Shown here: piece by piece, positions 46,601 through 54,281 of the stretch
How the letters are laid out: every line of letters begins with the position of its first letter
Numbering within the stretch: the stretch's first letter is position 1
NCBI RefSeq assembly: GCF_003851885.1
Contig: NZ_BHZE01000009.1
Location: forward strand, 1-64,000
Length of the DNA stretch: 64,000 bases
Direction of reading: 5' to 3'
Source: Thermaurantimonas aggregans
GTDB lineage: Bacteria > Bacteroidota > Bacteroidia > Flavobacteriales > Schleiferiaceae
Position numbers and translations under genes: made by a program
The notes under the pieces: generated by a model
The model's input: only the letters and a program-made list of their open reading frames with translations
What the model was told of the DNA's origin: nothing
Databases searched by the model: none

Positions 46601-49600
46601 CTATGGATTGTTGGATTTTTTTGTATTGGTGAAGAGTACAAACAGACCCGGGATGAGCAATACGCCAATGATGGTGCCTGTGATCATACCACCGGCGGCT
46701 GTGGTGCCTATGGTGCGGTTGCCAATGGCGCCTGCGCCTGTGGCCAATGCAAGTGGAATAAGGCCGGCTACGAAGGCAAATGAGGTCATTAAGATCGGAC
46801 GCAGACGTGCGACGGCCCCTTCGATAGCTGCTTGAAGGGGCTGCTTGCCACTTTTTACGGCTTGATTGGCAAATTCGACGATGAGTATGGCGTTTTTACC
46901 AAGCAGACCGATGAGCATTACGATGGATACCTGGGCGTAGATGTTGTTTTCAAGGCCGGCCATCTTGAGGAACATAAACGATCCGAAAATACCGGCAGGC
47001 AGTGAGAGTAGTACGGGCAGTGGCAAAAGGAAACTCTCATACTGTGCTGACAGCAGCAGATACACGAAGACTACAACGAGCATGTAGATGAAGAGAGTTT
47101 GATTGCCGGCCAGAATCTCTTCGCGTGTAATGCCTGCCCATTCGATAGCGTAACCTTTGGGCAATACACGCTTGGCTTCTTCCTGTATGGCGCGGATGGC
47201 GTCGCCTGAAGAATATCCTTTGGCGGCCTCACCGTTAAACATGGCAGCGGTGTACATGTTGTAGCGGGTGAGCTGCTCAGGGCCGAACACCTTTTGTGCT
47301 TTAATGAAGGTGTTGAGCTGTACCATTTCACCGCGTTCGTTTTTTACATAGTGGCGAAGAACGTCCTCAGGTGTAGTGATGTACTCGGGTGAGGCTTGGA
47401 GCATGACTTTGTAGGTCATGCCGAAGCGAATAAAGTTGGAGGTGTAGTAGGATCCGACCAATGTTTGGAGGGTACTCATGGCATTGTCGATGGTTACGCC
47501 GTTTTTAGCGGCTAATTCCTGATCTACTACCAGGAGGTATTGTGGGAAGGTGGGGTCGAAGCCGGTGAAAATGGAGCCGATTTCGGGGCGTTGTTTTAAG
47601 GCGAAGAGGAAAGAATCGACAACGGCTTTGATGGTCATGAGGTTTTCTTCGCCGGCTTTTTCTACCAGACGGAACTCAAATCCAGCAGCATTTCCGAAGC
47701 CTGGTACGGAGGGCGGTGGTAAAAACTCGATGCGTGCATCGGTGATCTTGTCTACGTCTTTTTCGAGATCAGCGATGAGTTGAAAGATGTTTTTTTCGCG
47801 TTTATCCCAAGGCACGAGGTTGATGGTGCCCATGCCAAAGGAAGCTGCATTCGACTCGGTGATCACAGAGTACCCTGCCAGGGTGGAGAAGTTTTCGATT
47901 TCGGGGTATTTTTTGACGATTTCTGAAAGCTCTTCAAGCACAGCCTGGGTTCGGTCGATGGTAGCACCGGGAGGGGTAGTGACGTTTACGTAAATCATGC
48001 CCTGATCTTCAGTGGGGATGAAACCTGTGGGAAGAATAGAATTAAACCCCCAGGTGGCCACAAAGGAGGCTGCCAATACACCGAGCGTTATAGCTCTGCG
48101 ACCGGCTATAACTCGTAGAAGCAATCTGTAACGTTGAGCTAGGCGATTGTAATAGTGGTTAAAGAGGAAAAAGAAGCGACCTAAAGGACCTTTAGGCATT
48201 GAGTGGCCAGTGTGATCGTGTGGCTTGAGCAGTAAGGCACAAAGGGCCGGCGTAAGGGTTACGGCATTGATGCCCGATAGGATGATCGAAATGGCCAGCG
48301 TAACGGAAAACTGCCGATAGAAGATACCGACGGGCCCTGACAAGAATGCAACCGGTACAAATACGGCCGTCATTACAATGGTGATGGAGATAAGCGCACC
48401 GCGTATATCGCGCATGGCTTCAAAAGTGGCCTGGCGAGCGTCGAGCTTTTTTATCTCCATGTACGAATGCACAGCCTCTACCACCACAATAGCATTGTCC
48501 ACCACAATACCAATTGCAAGTACCAGAGCAAAGAGGGTTAGCAAGTTGATCGAAAAGCCCAGAATGGACATAAAAGCAAACGTTCCTACGAGCGATACCG
48601 GAACCGCTAAGGCAGGAATCAGAGTAGAGCGGAAGTCTTGCAAAAAGATGAAAACGACCAGAGATACCAGTATGAACGCTTCGATGAGCGTCTTGATAAC
48701 TTCGGCTATAGATGCATCCAGGAAACGGCTAACGTCGTAGGCAACGTTGTATTGCATACCTTCAGGGAAAGTCTCAGCGCTGAGCTCTTCCATACGCTTT
48801 TTTACGTCGGTGATTACCTGGCGGGCATTTGAGCCGGGGCGCTGCTTTATCATAATAGTGGCTGATGGCCTACCGTCGGTTCTTGAGATAAGGCCATAAT
48901 CGAACGCACCAAATTGAATATCGGCTAAGTCTTTGAGTCTTAGGATAGAGCCATCGGGCATGGCGCGAATAACGAGGTTTTCAAATTGCTCTGGCTGATT
49001 AAACTTTCCTGTGTATTTGAGAACGTACTCTTGCTGTTGCGGAAGTTTACCAAGCGATTGGCCGGTTTTACCCGGTGCTGCTTCAATATTTTGCGCGCGA
49101 ATGATGGAGATTAGTTCGTCGGTAGAAATTTTGTAGTTGGCCAGCTTTTCTGGTTTTAGCCAGATGCGCATGGAGTAGTTTCGGTTGCCGAGAATTTCGC
49201 AAAAACCTACACCGTCAATACGCTTTAGCTCGCGGATGAGGTTGATGCCGGCGAAGTTGTATACAAATTCCTCATCCATTGTACTGTCGGTACTGAATAC
49301 ATTGAGAAACATCAGGATAGTATTCACCTCTTTTTCAGAGGTTACCCCGGCTTTTACCACTTCTTCGGGCAACTCGTCGAGCACTGTAGTCACGCGGTTT
49401 TGCACGTTTACGGCAGCCACATCGGGGTCGGTTCCTACCTTAAAGAATACCTGAATTAGAGTAGTACCATTGTTAGCTGTTACCGTGTTCATATAGGTCA
49501 TACCGGGTACACCGTTTACTGCCCGTTCTATAGGGTTGGCTACGGCTTTGGCGCATACTTCTGCATTAGCACCGGTGTACTTGGCGGTGATTACCACCGA

Positions 49601-49723
49601 TGGAGGTACGATGTCGGGGAACTGCGTTATTGGCAGCGTGAAGATAGCCAGAACGCCGAGTAGAACAATGAAAATATTTATGACCGCAGAGAGAATGGGT
49701 CGCTTAATGAATATGTCCAACAT
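46601..49723 (-). CDS. RND efflux transporter, HAE1 family (AcrB-like)
   Basis: Proton-driven inner-membrane pump of hydrophobic or amphiphilic drugs. 1040 residues, normal for AcrB-type proteins, with 12 membrane helices and two large periplasmic loops. Starts MLDIFIKRPILSAVINIFIVLLG. In helix 4, the proton-relay pair is Asp409-Asn410 (GIVVDNAIVVVEAV) where AcrB has Asp-Asp; the relay lysine in IGLLGKNAILIVEFA is kept. Between the adaptor gene (15-nt gap) and the outer-membrane gene. Confidence 0.96.
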   Translation of the reverse strand: MLDIFIKRPILSAVINIFIVLLGVLAIFTLPITQFPDIVPPSVVITAKYTGANAEVCAKAVANPIERAVNGVPGMTYMNTVTANNGTTLIQVFFKVGTDPDVAAVNVQNRVTTVLDELPEEVVKAGVTSEKEVNTILMFLNVFSTDSTMDEEFVYNFAGINLIRELKRIDGVGFCEILGNRNYSMRIWLKPEKLANYKISTDELISIIRAQNIEAAPGKTGQSLGKLPQQQEYVLKYTGKFNQPEQFENLVIRAMPDGSILRLKDLADIQFGAFDYGLISRTDGRPSATIMIKQRPGSNARQVITDVKKRMEELSAETFPEGMQYNVAYDVSRFLDASIAEVIKTLIEAFILVSLVVFIFLQDFRSTLIPALAVPVSLVGTFAFMSILGFSINLLTLFALVLAIGIVVDNAIVVVEAVHSYMEIKKLDARQATFEAMRDIRGALISITIVMTAVFVPVAFLSGPVGIFYRQFSVTLAISIILSGINAVTLTPALCALLLKPHDHTGHSMPKGPLGRFFFLFNHYYNRLAQRYRLLLRVIAGRRAITLGVLAASFVATWGFNSILPTGFIPTEDQGMIYVNVTTPPGATIDRTQAVLEELSEIVKKYPEIENFSTLAGYSVITESNAASFGMGTINLVPWDKREKNIFQLIADLEKDVDKITDARIEFLPPPSVPGFGNAAGFEFRLVEKAGEENLMTIKAVVDSFLFALKQRPEIGSIFTGFDPTFPQYLLVVDQELAAKNGVTIDNAMSTLQTLVGSYYTSNFIRFGMTYKVMLQASPEYITTPEDVLRHYVKNERGEMVQLNTFIKAQKVFGPEQLTRYNMYTAAMFNGEAAKGYSSGDAIRAIQEEAKRVLPKGYAIEWAGITREEILAGNQTLFIYMLVVVFVYLLLSAQYESFLLPLPVLLSLPAGIFGSFMFLKMAGLENNIYAQVSIVMLIGLLGKNAILIVEFANQAVKSGKQPLQAAIEGAVARLRPILMTSFAFVAGLIPLALATGAGAIGNRTIGTTAAGGMITGTIIGVLLIPGLFVLFTNTKKSNNP

Positions 49724-49738
49724 GGTGTCTGGTATGAA

Positions 49739-50821
49739 TTATTTGTAAGTAACCAGTGTGTTGTTTTTGATCTTTTGGATACCTTCGATCACAATGATGT
49801 CGCCGGCTTGTAATCCGCTCTGTATCCAGTATACATTAGTGAGCCTCTTTTTTGGCACGATGGGAATCATTTTAGCCCTGTTGTTAGAGTCCACTTTAAA
49901 GACGTAGTATTTGTCTTGTAGCTCGATCACTGCCTTATGAGGCACAAAAATTCCATCTTTTACGTTTCGGTTGAAAATGATTCTACCCGATGAACCGTGT
50001 TTAAGTATTTTTTTCTTGTTCGGAAATTTCGCGCGTATTGAGATGTTGCCGGTTGATGATTCAAATTCGCTTTCCATTGTTTCGATCACGCCTTTTTCAG
50101 GATAGATAGAACCATCGACGAGCTGCAGTCCCACTTCCTGACCGATAAAATTATTATCGTTGAATTCTTTCTTGAGCTCGAGGTATTCGCGCTCAGATAG
50201 GTTAAAGTAGGCATATACATTGTCGAGCTCACTAATGGTTGTGAGCAGCGTACCCTCATCTACAAGACTACCGCGACGCTGCAAGATGCGGTCGATCGAT
50301 CCAGAAAAAGGTGCTCTAACTAAAGTGTAGCTTAGGTGAACCATTGCCATATTTTCTTCAGCCTCAGCCTCTTCTACATTGGCGCGAGCTGCATTTAAGC
50401 GACTTTGAGCCAACTCGAGTTCACCTGGCGATACGATGTTGTTTTCTGCTAGTTTTTTGGTGCGCTCCAGTTCTACCAAAGCATTCTTTTCGGCAGCTAT
50501 CGCGTTTTTTACCTTGGCTTTTGCCTTACTGAGGTTTAGGCGATACTCCTCGTCATTGATTTTAAAAAGCACTTGCCCTTTGGTTACTGATTTCCCCTCA
50601 TCTACATAGAGATCTTCTAGATAACCCTTCAGTCGGCTTCGAATTTCTACATTTTGAAGTGCTCTGATTTCTGCAATAAAATCTTCTTTAAGAACAGTAT
50701 CAATTGATTCTAAAGCTAAAACTTCGACAAATTCGGGATTTTCTACATTTTTTTCCTTGTTGCCACACGCTGCAACTAGCAAATAAGAAACTGAAATACA
50801 ACTAATAAGGAATCTTTTCAA
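49739..50821 (-). CDS. RND efflux periplasmic adaptor subunit (membrane fusion protein), lipoprotein
   Basis: 360 residues. Lipoprotein signal with VAACG, then the lipoyl/barrel-sandwich halves (IRSRLKGYLEDLYVDEGKSVTKGQVLFKI and VRAPFSGSIDRILQRRGSLVDEGTLLTTI) around an alpha-helical hairpin (KAKAKVKNAIAAEKNALVELERTKKLAE), and a beta-barrel C-terminus. Links the RND pump to the outer-membrane channel. The start codon must be TTG (50821): an in-frame TAA lies five codons upstream and no ATG precedes the signal peptide. First gene of the efflux operon. Confidence 0.94.
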   Translation of the reverse strand: MKRFLISCISVSYLLVAACGNKEKNVENPEFVEVLALESIDTVLKEDFIAEIRALQNVEIRSRLKGYLEDLYVDEGKSVTKGQVLFKINDEEYRLNLSKAKAKVKNAIAAEKNALVELERTKKLAENNIVSPGELELAQSRLNAARANVEEAEAEENMAMVHLSYTLVRAPFSGSIDRILQRRGSLVDEGTLLTTISELDNVYAYFNLSEREYLELKKEFNDNNFIGQEVGLQLVDGSIYPEKGVIETMESEFESSTGNISIRAKFPNKKKILKHGSSGRIIFNRNVKDGIFVPHKAVIELQDKYYVFKVDSNNRAKMIPIVPKKRLTNVYWIQSGLQAGDIIVIEGIQKIKNNTLVTYK

Positions 50822-50922: not shown

Positions 50923-53238
50923 GTGAAAAAAATATTTTTAATTTCTTTAACCTATCTGATTTTTAGTTCGCTGTGGATATTTTTAACAGACAGTATTGAT
51001 CATAATTTTTTTGGTTTTAAAGATTACACTAGATTTCAGACTTACAAAGGCATTTTGTTTGTCGTCTTTTCTTCGTTGGTAGTTTTTTTGACGACTTACA
51101 CCTTCTACATACGAGAGATCTTACAATATGAAAAAGTAAAAATACTATCTACAATTCAAGAAATCATTTTAAACAACTCTCAGTCTTTTTCATGGATTTG
51201 CAACTTGAAAACGGGTGAAGTCATTCTATATGGCTATACACCTTTTCTCTCAAAAAACAATTTTACATTAGATATAACTGAAATAAAAAGATTCTATCAG
51301 CTTTATACTGATTTTACTTTTGTACAAGATGTTATAGAAGATTTAAAAAGAAATAAGATTGAAACTTTTGAACATGAGTATAAAATTCATTTAGATAATG
51401 ATATAAAATATTACAAAATATATTTTTTAAAGTATATTGGATCAAACAAAAATTCTTACATCATTGCCCACTCTAATAACATTACTGAATATCGAAAATC
51501 CCTTGAAGAAATAGAACATCAACAAAAGCTTCTGGATTCGGTAATTAAAAGTTTACCTGATATATTAATACTTATTGATAACAAAACGTATGTTGTAAAG
51601 TTTTTTTACTACAAAGATGAATCAGATATTTTGGTTCAAAAAGAGTATTTGCTAGGTAAGGATATTAGGCATTTTGTTCCTCCATTTATTTCTGAAGAAT
51701 TAGAGAAGAAAATACAAGATGCTGAATACAAAAAGATTCCCTTTGTATATGCCCTGCCCATGCACAATAGAATAGAGCATTATGAAGCGAGATTTGTAGA
51801 TTATGACAGTGATAATACGATGATAATTGTTCGTAATATCACCGAGCAATACGAAACCAACAGAGAGAAAGAAATTTACTTACAGCAGCTACAGAATGCA
51901 GAGAGTATTTTAAATTTTGCCTTTTGGTCCTACGATACTGAAGACAAAAAAAAGTACGTCTCTTCGAGAATTTCTACACTATTTGGCATCACTATCAATT
52001 CCATTGAAGATGCTAAAATGCTCTTTGAGTATATAGTTCCTGAAGATTTGCCTTTTGCCTATGAAAATTATAAAAACATTTTGGAAGGTAACGAATTAAA
52101 AGACGGAACTATACGTTTCAAGTTGCCAGATGGTAATGTAAAACATATTTTGCAAAAAGTAATGAATATCCGGAAAGGGAAATTTATTAAATATCAAGGT
52201 GTTTTAGTGGATATCACAAATGAAATATTAACTGCAATAAACCTAAAGCAAAAGTCCTTTTATCTAAATCTTTTATCCGAATTCACAAATGATATACTTG
52301 TATTGTATGACTTTTCAAACGAAAAAATTGAATATATTAACTCTACTGCTTTTAAATATATTATAAAAGAAGATTTTAATGATGTAAAATCTAACTTTTT
52401 TCAAGGATATTTTTATGATAAGGATTTAATTGAAATCAAAGAAAAAATCAAGATTCTGTTTAATAAAAATGATTATAAGGCAAGTGACAGTATTTGTTTA
52501 GAAACACAATTTATAAAAGAAAAACGAGTACCTATTTGGGTTGAAGTTTCTATTTACAAAATTGCAGACGAAGACTCTGATAAAATTTTATTATTAATAA
52601 AGGATATTCACGAAAAGAAAAAATATCTTGAAGAATTGGAAAACGCAAACTTACAATTTAGATATGCAGCTAAAGCCACCACCGATGCCATATGGGATTG
52701 GAATTTAGAGACAGGTACTTTTATATGGACAGAAAATTTCGAGATTTTTTTTGGACACAACATAAAAAATCTACCCAAAGATCTAAGTGGGTGGAAAGAA
52801 TTTTGTCATCCTGATGATATAGACCGCGTTTTTAAAAGTATAAGATACGCAATCGATCACGGTCATGAGTTTTGGCAAGAAGAATACCGTTTGCGAGATT
52901 CATCTGGCATTTACAAAGATGTTTTAAACAAGGCTGTGCTTATCTATCATGATAACAAGGCAGTGAGAATCATTGGGGCAATTCACGATATAACCAAAGA
53001 AAAGGATGCTCTGAGAAAACTCACCATGCAAAACTTAAAACTTCGGGAAATTGCTTGGACACAATCTCATGTAGTACGTGCTCCACTTGCGAGGTTGATG
53101 GGTTTAATAGAAATGTATGATTTATTGCGCGAATCTGAATACGATGATGTTTCTTTGCGCAAATTAATTTACAACTCAGCTAAAGAGTTAGATGATACCA
53201 TCCACCACATAATCAAAAAAACAGAGAATCTCGACTGA
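50923..53238 (+). CDS. PAS-domain sensor with histidine-kinase dimerisation helix but no ATPase domain
   Basis: 771 residues. Two N-terminal membrane segments (ISLTYLIFSSLWIFL and GILFVVFSSLVVFLTTYTFYI) precede about four to five PAS modules; the last (about 585-700) has the classic DWNLETGTFIWTENF ... FCHPDDIDRVF ... GAIHDIT pattern. The C-terminus has a histidine-kinase-like phosphoacceptor helix (WTQSHVVRAPLARLMGL, His716), but the protein ends 55 residues later with no HATPase domain (no N, G1 or G2 boxes). It starts at GTG after an in-frame stop. The stop overlaps the next gene's ATG by one base. AT-rich. Confidence 0.88.
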   Translation: MKKIFLISLTYLIFSSLWIFLTDSIDHNFFGFKDYTRFQTYKGILFVVFSSLVVFLTTYTFYIREILQYEKVKILSTIQEIILNNSQSFSWICNLKTGEVILYGYTPFLSKNNFTLDITEIKRFYQLYTDFTFVQDVIEDLKRNKIETFEHEYKIHLDNDIKYYKIYFLKYIGSNKNSYIIAHSNNITEYRKSLEEIEHQQKLLDSVIKSLPDILILIDNKTYVVKFFYYKDESDILVQKEYLLGKDIRHFVPPFISEELEKKIQDAEYKKIPFVYALPMHNRIEHYEARFVDYDSDNTMIIVRNITEQYETNREKEIYLQQLQNAESILNFAFWSYDTEDKKKYVSSRISTLFGITINSIEDAKMLFEYIVPEDLPFAYENYKNILEGNELKDGTIRFKLPDGNVKHILQKVMNIRKGKFIKYQGVLVDITNEILTAINLKQKSFYLNLLSEFTNDILVLYDFSNEKIEYINSTAFKYIIKEDFNDVKSNFFQGYFYDKDLIEIKEKIKILFNKNDYKASDSICLETQFIKEKRVPIWVEVSIYKIADEDSDKILLLIKDIHEKKKYLEELENANLQFRYAAKATTDAIWDWNLETGTFIWTENFEIFFGHNIKNLPKDLSGWKEFCHPDDIDRVFKSIRYAIDHGHEFWQEEYRLRDSSGIYKDVLNKAVLIYHDNKAVRIIGAIHDITKEKDALRKLTMQNLKLREIAWTQSHVVRAPLARLMGLIEMYDLLRESEYDDVSLRKLIYNSAKELDDTIHHIIKKTENLD

Positions 53239-53639
53239 TGAGTAAAATTGTTGTACTAAATGTTGACGACGATGATGTGACTTTGATGTTGCACAAAATG
53301 CTGGTGAAGGCTCTTGGTTTTTGTGATGAGGTAGAAAATTTTATTAGTGGTGAAAGCGCTTTAGAGTATTTACAAAGTGCTTCTTTTTCAGCTGAAAGTA
53401 ACTACATCATTCTGCTAGATATCAATATGCCTGGTATGAGTGGATGGGATTTTTTAGATAAAATAGATCATATTGATGGACTTAAAGCGTATGTGGCATT
53501 GGTTACATCTTCTATCGACAGTCGCGATCAAGAGAAGGCTAAAAACTATAAAAAGGTGATCGATTTTTTTATTAAACCTCTACATAAAAATCATTTGTCA
53601 AGTTTTTTTCAAAAGGTCAAGCTGCTGCTTGAGCAGTAA
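53238..53639 (+). CDS. Single-domain response regulator (receiver)
   Basis: 133 residues, one receiver domain without output module. Acidic cluster DDDD (10-13), phosphoacceptor Asp61 (IILLDINMPG), VTSS and the conserved Lys in FFIKPL. Coupled to the PAS sensor gene by a TGATG overlap, so it is the likely partner of the His716 helix. Its last 42 nt overlap the end of hemD on the other strand. Confidence 0.92.
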   Translation: MSKIVVLNVDDDDVTLMLHKMLVKALGFCDEVENFISGESALEYLQSASFSAESNYIILLDINMPGMSGWDFLDKIDHIDGLKAYVALVTSSIDSRDQEKAKNYKKVIDFFIKPLHKNHLSSFFQKVKLLLEQ

Positions 53640-54281
53640 TAACATTTCTTTTTTATCAGGTTTTGTTGCAGTAATGTAATTTTTAAAACCCAATTCTTCA
53701 CATTTTTTGGAAGTAGTATTTCCTATACAAATGATAGTAACTTTGTTTTTATCGACTATGGTTGTGTAAATAGATTGAAGTCCTGATGGACTAAAGGCCA
53801 GTATAAATTCAGGCTGTTCTATTTTTTCTATTTTTTTGGGTATTTTTTTATACGTGATCAACTCTTTAAATTTTACATGGCTGTTCTCTTGAAAATACTT
53901 TGAAATATGCTCTAATCTATCACTGGCACATATGTGTACAAAAGTTTTTGATGTATTGAAATTTTGAATTTTTTGTATCAGCTCTTCTGATGTATAGCCT
54001 GTAAAAAGAACTGAATAACCTCTTTCTTCAGCTAATTTTTTTGTTTTACCACCTATACAAATACAATTTATTGTATCAAAAAATTTCAAATTATCCTCTA
54101 CCGAAAATACAGCATTTTGACTGGTAAAAATATAAATTTCCTCCTTGGGATTAAATGGATAATCTACTTTTAAAAACGCTATTTCGAATGGATAAATTGT
54201 CTCAAAAATAACATCGGAATAGGAAGAAAATATATTCAAATCATCATCATTAAGTTCTTTCAAAGAGATAACTCTTATCAT
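53598..54281 (-). CDS. hemD: uroporphyrinogen-III synthase
   Basis: Closes hydroxymethylbilane into uroporphyrinogen III in haem synthesis. 227 residues with the two-lobed HemD pattern: IFTSQNAVFSV near 55, CIGGKTKKLAEERGY, FSPSGLQSI and CIGNTTSKKCEELGF (second lobe). Sequence conservation is low in this family but the motifs agree. Not with other hem genes here. Followed by the TonB receptor gene three nt upstream on the same strand. Confidence 0.85.
   Translation of the reverse strand: MIRVISLKELNDDDLNIFSSYSDVIFETIYPFEIAFLKVDYPFNPKEEIYIFTSQNAVFSVEDNLKFFDTINCICIGGKTKKLAEERGYSVLFTGYTSEELIQKIQNFNTSKTFVHICASDRLEHISKYFQENSHVKFKELITYKKIPKKIEKIEQPEFILAFSPSGLQSIYTTIVDKNKVTIICIGNTTSKKCEELGFKNYITATKPDKKEMLLLLKQQLDLLKKT

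Follow-up and report, generated by a model that had tools for sequence, protein, structure and literature searches.

The question raised by this locus is what a sensor protein does that possesses the phosphoacceptor helix of a histidine kinase but no ATPase domain, and that is co-encoded with a lone receiver. The two genes (Table 1) lie in a stretch of 64,000 bp of Thermaurantimonas aggregans (NCBI RefSeq assembly GCF_003851885.1, contig NZ_BHZE01000009.1, positions 1 to 64,000), the whole of which is called the window here. A preliminary description of the window had proposed exactly this composition, i.e., a PAS sensor with a phosphoacceptor helix, no ATPase and a lone receiver, and it is borne out by the open reading frames (ORFs), by Pfam and NCBIfam, and by recurrence in a family of related genes. 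We see about an even chance that the window pair constitutes a sensor-gated phosphotransferase module between receivers, similar to histidine phosphotransfer (HPt) proteins. As to the family, its members most likely relay or gate phosphate that is supplied by other proteins and do not make phosphate themselves.

The ATPase-less sensor and its family

A Pfam scan of the sensor at E<=1 returned four PAS-fold families and two matches at noise level, and no HATPase, HisKA or Hpt domain (the last, PF01627, being the one that marks the HPt family); no HATPase was found by NCBIfam either. The sensory_box model covers three PAS stretches, i.e., at least three PAS domains, and residues 7-61 match weakly the N-terminus of the DibA phosphodiesterase model, with no convincing Pfam match. 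The C-terminal stretch REIAWTQSHVVRAPLARLMGL... is the last segment of the protein and closes 55 residues past His716, which is situated in the motif WTQSHVVRAPL; this ending and the TGATG overlap with the receiver gene were both found in the sequence as preliminarily described. Concerning the features of a canonical sensor kinase, a dimerisation and histidine phosphotransfer (DHp) domain with its putative phosphoacceptor His is present, whereas the catalytic and ATP-binding (CA) domain, HATPase_c, that should follow it is absent. Without an ATPase of its own, the sensor therefore cannot phosphorylate itself as written, as had been claimed for it.

Judged by its sequence, the tail is a hairpin of the HisKA type. 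In a search of the own genome with PF00512 it is met at window positions 53065-53208 with E=0.11 and 14.3 bits, i.e., below the curated cut-off of 26.9, and it scores lowest among the four DHp-only members of this genome (29.3, 25.1, 16.8 and 14.3 bits). The paralogue at C2:52271 lies above the cut-off (29.3 bits) and three further relatives lie below it (L117, 23.6; L107, 20.1; L152, 18.4); as the scores are mostly below the cut-off, standard annotation can miss such a tail. A family profile of 30 rows matches the DHp domains of solved histidine kinases (best 7n0e, E=5.5e-8), and nearly all of its 36 distinct matches among solved structures at E<=1 are histidine kinases or EnvZ chimeras, while three at E>0.5 are unrelated (PsbQ', a designed protein and RPB9). 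In the three alignments printed, SH..R.PL lines up with the kinase H-box, with the His aligned.

The sensor is not alone in its genome. Its 64-aa tail finds five places besides itself, namely two weak ones (E=0.1 and 0.5) and three paralogues that all stop just past the hairpin (C1:22013, E=3e-10, 527 aa; C2:52253, E=8e-9; C2:182709, E=1e-4, 448 aa). Each of the four DHp-only proteins has its reciprocal best match, among ten proteins compared, in a genome (G014) from another genus within the same taxonomic family; identity is 39-53% over nearly the full length for the three paralogues, and for the window sensor 55% over the last 172 aa and only 40% over residues 66-596. A genome of the same genus (G001, 70% complete) contains counterparts of two of the four.

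In wider searches, a profile of four rows matched 26 of 60 genomes at E<=1e-4 (matches weaker than 6.7e-7 were left out of the fetched loci), and at E<=1e-8 the profile of 30 rows found matches in 39 of the 198 phylum genomes (loci were retrieved for matches down to 8.8e-11 and, for weaker ones, wherever a locus was given, in many of these genomes from at most 32 scored candidates); both counts include the own genome and some ordinary kinases. Each distinct DHp core was classed by what follows it in the same ORF, identical cores being counted once and those below 30 bits dropped. The classes rest on home-made HATPase and receiver (REC) profiles from 8 and 10 sequences of the own genome, respectively; Pfam was used instead for the window pair, for the kinases scanned and for the Persicobacter ORF mentioned below. 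The 131 cores comprise 106 DHp-terminal, 5 DHp-REC and 20 HATPase-bearing ones. At 50 bits or more there are 88 (83 DHp-terminal, 5 DHp-REC, none with HATPase), between 40 and 50 bits 21 DHp-terminal and 17 HATPase-bearing, and between 30 and 40 bits 2 and 3, respectively. Classic kinases turn up only below 50 bits, in a score that is partly circular, the profile having been built mainly from DHp-terminal members. Among the strong matches, the sequence type marked by IAWxQSHxxRxPL is not seen with an ATPase.

The strong DHp-terminal members end 51-87 residues after the His (median 61, n=83). With the own genome counted, at least 20 of the 198 genomes have verified members of this kind, up to 11 per genome, and so do 18 of the 60 relatives, where the five DHp-REC proteins are confined to three. 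The window sensor hence belongs to a recurrent family and is no truncation accident; truncation or a pseudogene is ruled out by the family-wide recurrence of the same ending. The search for similar DHp-only sensors that had been suggested was thus rewarded with three paralogues in the own genome and with 83 DHp-terminal proteins among 88 strong members. A frameshift near 53236 concealing a HATPase, which had been named as a possible refutation, was not found: none of the 88 strong relatives has a HATPase, and since the convergent gene hemD directly follows the receiver, no hidden HATPase lies downstream.

Two damaged copies are the observations that would suit a degraded kinase, i.e., a gene that recently lost its CA domain and is decaying. 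The paralogue at C2:52253 (about 51095-52460; L011:343-1707) contains two in-frame TAA codons, where its G014 counterpart is open, and may be a pseudogene or an assembly error; in the window sensor's closest orthologue (G014:C2:158872-160972, L230) the reading frame shifts close to where the last PAS domain begins, with the DHp and the overlapping receiver open. Against this, 83 of the 88 strong members, orthologues in another genus included, end at the same point, and the last 172 aa of the window sensor are better conserved than the part before, such that decay is very improbable.

The lineage is probably Bacteroidota, given the CHU_C type IX secretion domain encoded in the window and two plasmid records with family members that belong to Bacteroidota, one of them being plasmid pEMTOL02 of Emticicia oligotrophica with a DHp-terminal protein of 445 aa (WP_015031188.1, annotated as 'PAS domain S-box protein') and no adjoining receiver. 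No match at E<=1e-9 was obtained in 150 genomes of the phylum around a metagenome-assembled genome of Proteobacteria (L033), a set without positive control in which scoring covered at most the best 42 candidates of each genome. The family profile had no match at E<=1e-6 in the genomes of L033, L036, L038 and L039, and viral contigs, searched with the single tail, gave no relative. With the last PAS and the DHp as query, seven loci were found, of which the one read (L037) encodes a full kinase. An operon on contig C21 of the own genome (histidine kinase, REC, REC-PAS-histidine kinase) was rejected as a member: its motifs, SHEIRTP and SHDLKAP, are those of a classic set of kinases, and the frame of its hybrid is broken. 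This locus (L229, G000:C21:9000-18000) encodes a 373-aa protein that by eye is a possible FIST-type sensor, a kinase, a lone receiver and the hybrid, the frame of which is broken near the end of the HATPase, ahead of the last receiver.

Partner receivers and rival mechanisms

The phosphotransfer reading rests on relay-like operons, on fusions and on the grouping of the partner receivers. A receiver gene lies directly downstream of 22 of the 106 DHp-terminal genes, the window pair included, compared to 6 of 351 control ORFs (long ORFs of the same loci without two-component domains; Fisher 1.9e-10); in one case (L191) the downstream gene is itself a REC-PAS-DHp. These receivers retain the phospho-Asp, the Lys and the Thr/Ser in 22 of 22 cases and the acidic pair in 21 (one gap), and the window receiver carries all residues expected of a single-domain response regulator, i.e., the acidic pair, the phospho-Asp, Thr and Lys (Table 1).

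Sixteen DHp-terminal proteins begin with a receiver of their own (REC-PAS-DHp), and seven of these have a receiver downstream as well. Their upstream neighbour is a lone receiver in 12 cases, a HATPase ORF in one, a PAS-DHp ORF in one and none of these in two. In nine of the 12, a HATPase ORF in turn precedes the upstream receiver (L107, L108, L111, L139, L141, L146, L152, L171, L201), several of these nine loci being cut by the locus end, and at four (L108, L139, L146, L152) the whole set of HATPase ORF, REC, REC-PAS-DHp and REC is present in this order. Tight sets of REC, REC-PAS-DHp and REC are found at L142 (G112:C1:3357416), L149 (G184:C3:155801) and L139 (G158:C6:70676). Concerning fusions, plasmid 2 of Persicobacter sp. 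JZB09 (L237:3509-4615) encodes a REC-DHp-REC chain of 368 aa (DHp 43 bits) in which neither an ATPase nor a PAS match was found, so that one polypeptide would hold an entire receiver-histidine-receiver relay. Lunatimonas salinarum possesses, besides a REC followed by REC-PAS-DHp, a PAS-DHp protein that ends in a weakly matching REC (16 bits).

In a tree of the receivers (68 rows and 127 columns, which are few for the number of rows; bootstrap not settled), 25 of the 26 partner receivers, i.e., those downstream of or fused to an ATPase-less DHp, fall into one fork of 26 rows (support 81/88) that also holds one upstream row, whereas seven receivers of HATPase-bearing relatives lie apart. When the partner receivers following PAS-DHp, following REC-PAS-DHp and fused are merged into one group (26 rows), the tree needs 3 changes compared to 20.9 after shuffling, with none of 500 shuffles as low. 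The N-terminal receivers form another group (16 of 17, including one that is part of a HATPase-bearing protein), to which those of the middle proteins of L142, L149 and L139 belong, and 9 of 15 upstream receivers form a further one. In this tree the window receiver and its orthologue from G014 form a pair (100/95).

On this basis the following relay may be proposed. The sensor would dimerise via its HisKA-type hairpin. The phosphate would originate from a complete histidine kinase at another place in the cell, which would load a receiver, and it is this loaded receiver, not an ATPase of the sensor, that would phosphorylate His716; the DHp would then hand the phosphoryl group to Asp61 of the co-encoded receiver, or take it back. 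Membrane or PAS input would set the competence of the hairpin, such that a His-Asp-His-Asp relay could receive a second signal at its midpoint. The window would co-encode the last two steps alone and the donor would have to act from elsewhere, while in the four-gene sets of the relatives all parts of such a relay would stand together. We infer in which direction the phosphate moves and from which kind of donor the window pair obtains it, and likewise the signal and what the receiver controls. The own genome has one Hpt above the Pfam cut-off, on another contig than the window, which fits a need for other phosphotransferases and proves nothing.

Several points weigh against the phosphotransfer reading. 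No receiver lies directly downstream of 84 of the 106 DHp-terminal genes, and the donor gene sets are found in other genomes, none of them beside the window pair, where neither a CA-domain partner protein nor a donor kinase or donor receiver adjoins. Two of the 16 N-terminal receivers have Asn in place of the phospho-Asp. The grouping of the partner receivers is moderately supported, and the data neither demonstrate nor reject a strict clade that comprises all 26 (p-AU 0.12). A single-sequence AlphaFold2 model of sensor residues 567-771 (mean pLDDT 39) is too poor for geometry. The position after the His (H+1) provides no clean support: D, E or N stands there in 34 of 106 DHp-terminal and in 20 of 20 HATPase-bearing cores (Fisher 3.8e-9, uncorrected for kinship and for a residue class picked after the table was seen), but the strictly acidic D or E is alike in both (32 of 106 and 5 of 20), 15 of the 20 HATPase-bearing cores having Asn. 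The idea that H+1 marks a loss of kinase chemistry was accordingly discarded, acidic residues being equally frequent in both classes. Finally, Glu is found at H+1 in 28 of the 88 strong members, and in HisKA kinases, according to the cited passage, the kinase step requires that an acidic residue follow the His (PMC3510030).

Such a Glu suits phosphorylation by a CA domain in trans, as in a split histidine kinase, where the partner in a heterodimer, either a complete kinase or a CA protein encoded separately, would phosphorylate His716 in trans and the phosphate would then pass directly to the receiver. Precedents are described in the passages on CheA3/CheA4 (PMC3591291) and Hik36-Hik43 (PMC7656254), and 19 of the 28 HATPase_c frames of the own genome have a HisKA match as well (nine do not) and could serve as partners. 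However, a HATPase ORF directly follows only one of the 106 DHp-terminal genes (L113), the smallest of the 28 frames has 357 aa, with no small lone CA protein seen among them, and all six kinases scanned beside relatives (five from relay-like operons and one beside a DHp-REC gene, L114) exceed the cut-off for both HisKA and HATPase_c; since they carry a DHp of their own, they need no borrowed one. We regard the split kinase as unlikely.

Rather unlikely, too, is a sensor-gated phosphatase, in which the DHp would dephosphorylate the co-encoded receiver after loading by another kinase, with the PAS domains switching the activity. It agrees with the co-encoding of sensor and receiver and with the intact active site of the latter, requires no adjacent donor kinase, and has a parallel in CheA3 of R. 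sphaeroides, which, as far as the cited passage goes, indicates that the phosphatase function in a split kinase can reside in a free phosphoacceptor protein (PMC3591291). A pure phosphatase, however, need not retain the His in every member, whereas the His and the Arg at +3 are kept in 131 of 131 cores, with a profile that itself favours loci with His. Thr or Asn at H+4, which HisKA kinases need for phosphatase activity according to the same passage as above (PMC3510030), is missing in the window sensor, which has Ala there, and in all 88 strong cores (A57 R12 G8 K7 Q2 S1 V1). As the 20 HATPase-bearing relatives likewise lack it (A14 G4 S2), this is a weak test. The motif does not decide between the mechanisms, and as sequence evidence it argues mildly against a canonical HisKA phosphatase.

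A decoy or allosteric scaffold, the hairpin of which would bind receivers without phosphotransfer or heterodimerise with kinases, is improbable. RetS heterodimerises with the kinase GacS, and the solved-structure matches of the DHp profile include, besides ordinary kinases, RetS (E=0.023) and DivL (E=0.49). Such a function is disfavoured because the His is kept throughout and neither Asp nor Lys is missing from any of the downstream receivers, which would not be expected of a pure decoy. Among the roles that the preliminary description had left side by side, phosphotransfer fed by another kinase is therefore the best supported, by operons, fusions and receiver grouping; the phosphatase is possible, but meets with the absence of Thr/Asn at H+4; and the decoy loses ground.

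If the phosphotransfer reading applies, it may extend to the whole lineage. Tentatively, such ATP-free sensors could act as mid-relay switches, with dedicated lone receivers phosphorylated only if the signals of the kinase and of the PAS-DHp protein agree, a possibility in which we place limited confidence. With up to eleven gates per verified genome, this layer could then outnumber classic HPt proteins. Annotations such as 'PAS domain S-box protein' (e.g., the Emticicia protein) would denote phosphate gates, neither kinases nor broken genes, and maps of kinase-receiver wiring in the phylum would miss a layer. The family also offers clean test material, with naturally ATPase-free DHp domains, built-in sensors, co-encoded receivers and some complete relay sets.

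Features and neighbouring genes in the window

Table 1. Positions of the sensor and receiver features in the window
Feature	Position	Strand	Evidence
HATPase-less PAS-DHp sensor gene (GTG start, 771 aa)	50923..53238	+	Pfam and NCBIfam
N-terminal module with two hydrophobic helices, probably in the membrane (residues 1-64)	50923..51114	+	sequence read by eye
PAS domain, residues 331-434	51913..52224	+	TIGR00229 sensory_box, best stretch
PAS domain, residues 459-564	52297..52614	+	PF13426, best stretch
PAS domain, residues 602-686	52726..52980	+	PF08447, best stretch; whole-protein E=1.7e-23
DHp (HisKA-like) helical hairpin, extreme C-terminus, IAWTQSHVVRAPLAR motif	53044..53235	+	family profile against solved histidine kinase DHp domains
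Putative phosphoacceptor His716 codon, CAT	53068..53070	+	His at the same place in 131/131 loci
TGATG stop/start overlap coupling sensor and receiver (TGA 53236-53238, ATG 53238-53240)	53236..53240	+	
Lone receiver, 133 aa, ATG start; acidic pair D10/D11, phospho-Asp D61, T90, K113	53238..53639	+	PF00072 Response_reg, E=2.1e-13

The next gene after the receiver is hemD (uroporphyrinogen-III synthase; minus strand, 53598-54281; HEM4, E=2.9e-25), which overlaps the receiver gene tail-to-tail by 42 bp (window 53598-53639). On the other side, genes of an AcrB-type RND efflux pump and an HlyD-type adaptor (minus strand, 46601-50821) are divergent from the sensor and begin around 100 bp from its start. 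A CHU_C type IX secretion domain is also encoded in the window.

Comparison with known systems

In the literature searched, which was covered partially and mostly as titles and beginnings of abstracts, no description of this family was recognised, which does not imply its absence from print. Rv0600c/Rv0601c/TcrA of M. tuberculosis is a split kinase. In split kinases of the CheA3/CheA4 type the phosphoacceptor domain is likewise located apart from the ATPase domain, and the study on them gives, from SMART, 1556 of 42417 HisKA proteins as lacking a HATPase (PMC3591291). Split kinases have a CA partner, however, whereas none adjoins the window pair and the relatives provide a single directly downstream HATPase ORF.

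The domain order of the REC-PAS-DHp relatives equals that of archaeal REC-PAS/GAF-HisKA proteins without HATPase (AF_1472 class), none of which has been studied and the partners of which are unknown according to the passage of the census (PMC5847659); a family of A. fulgidus without HATPase is also mentioned in a passage of PMC1183210. In contrast to the family described here, that class is archaeal and the source passage gives no relay operon or partner receiver for it; the window protein, in turn, has no N-terminal REC.

Phosphotransferases derived from histidine kinases and without a working ATPase are already known; in the PAS-DHp type described here nothing follows the DHp. ChpT is not known to have a sensor domain. 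As described, ChpT of Caulobacter (PMC3433190, PMC9981736) and Spo0B of Bacillus share with the proposed module a DHp similar to that of histidine kinases, in which a His carries phosphate from one receiver to another, and the lack of autophosphorylation with ATP; this is a likeness of anatomy as described rather than of directly compared sequences. By the same descriptions ChpT keeps a degenerate CA-like domain, a feature of the ChpT/Spo0B/PhyT type, whereas the window sensor, closing 55 residues past His716, has none and carries PAS domains before the DHp. PhyT of Sphingomonas melonis (SdrG-PhyT-PhyR) is, in the passage cited, membrane-anchored, with a putative sensor, and thought to be derived from a histidine kinase, and it takes phosphate from a single-domain receiver, as proposed for the window relay (PMC5898713). 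PhyT (PhyP) differs in its HRxxN motif and degenerate ATPase domain, compared to SHxxRxPL and a wholly absent ATPase domain in the family of the window sensor. The anatomy of the window pair is consistent with phosphate shuttling of the ChpT/Spo0B/PhyT type.

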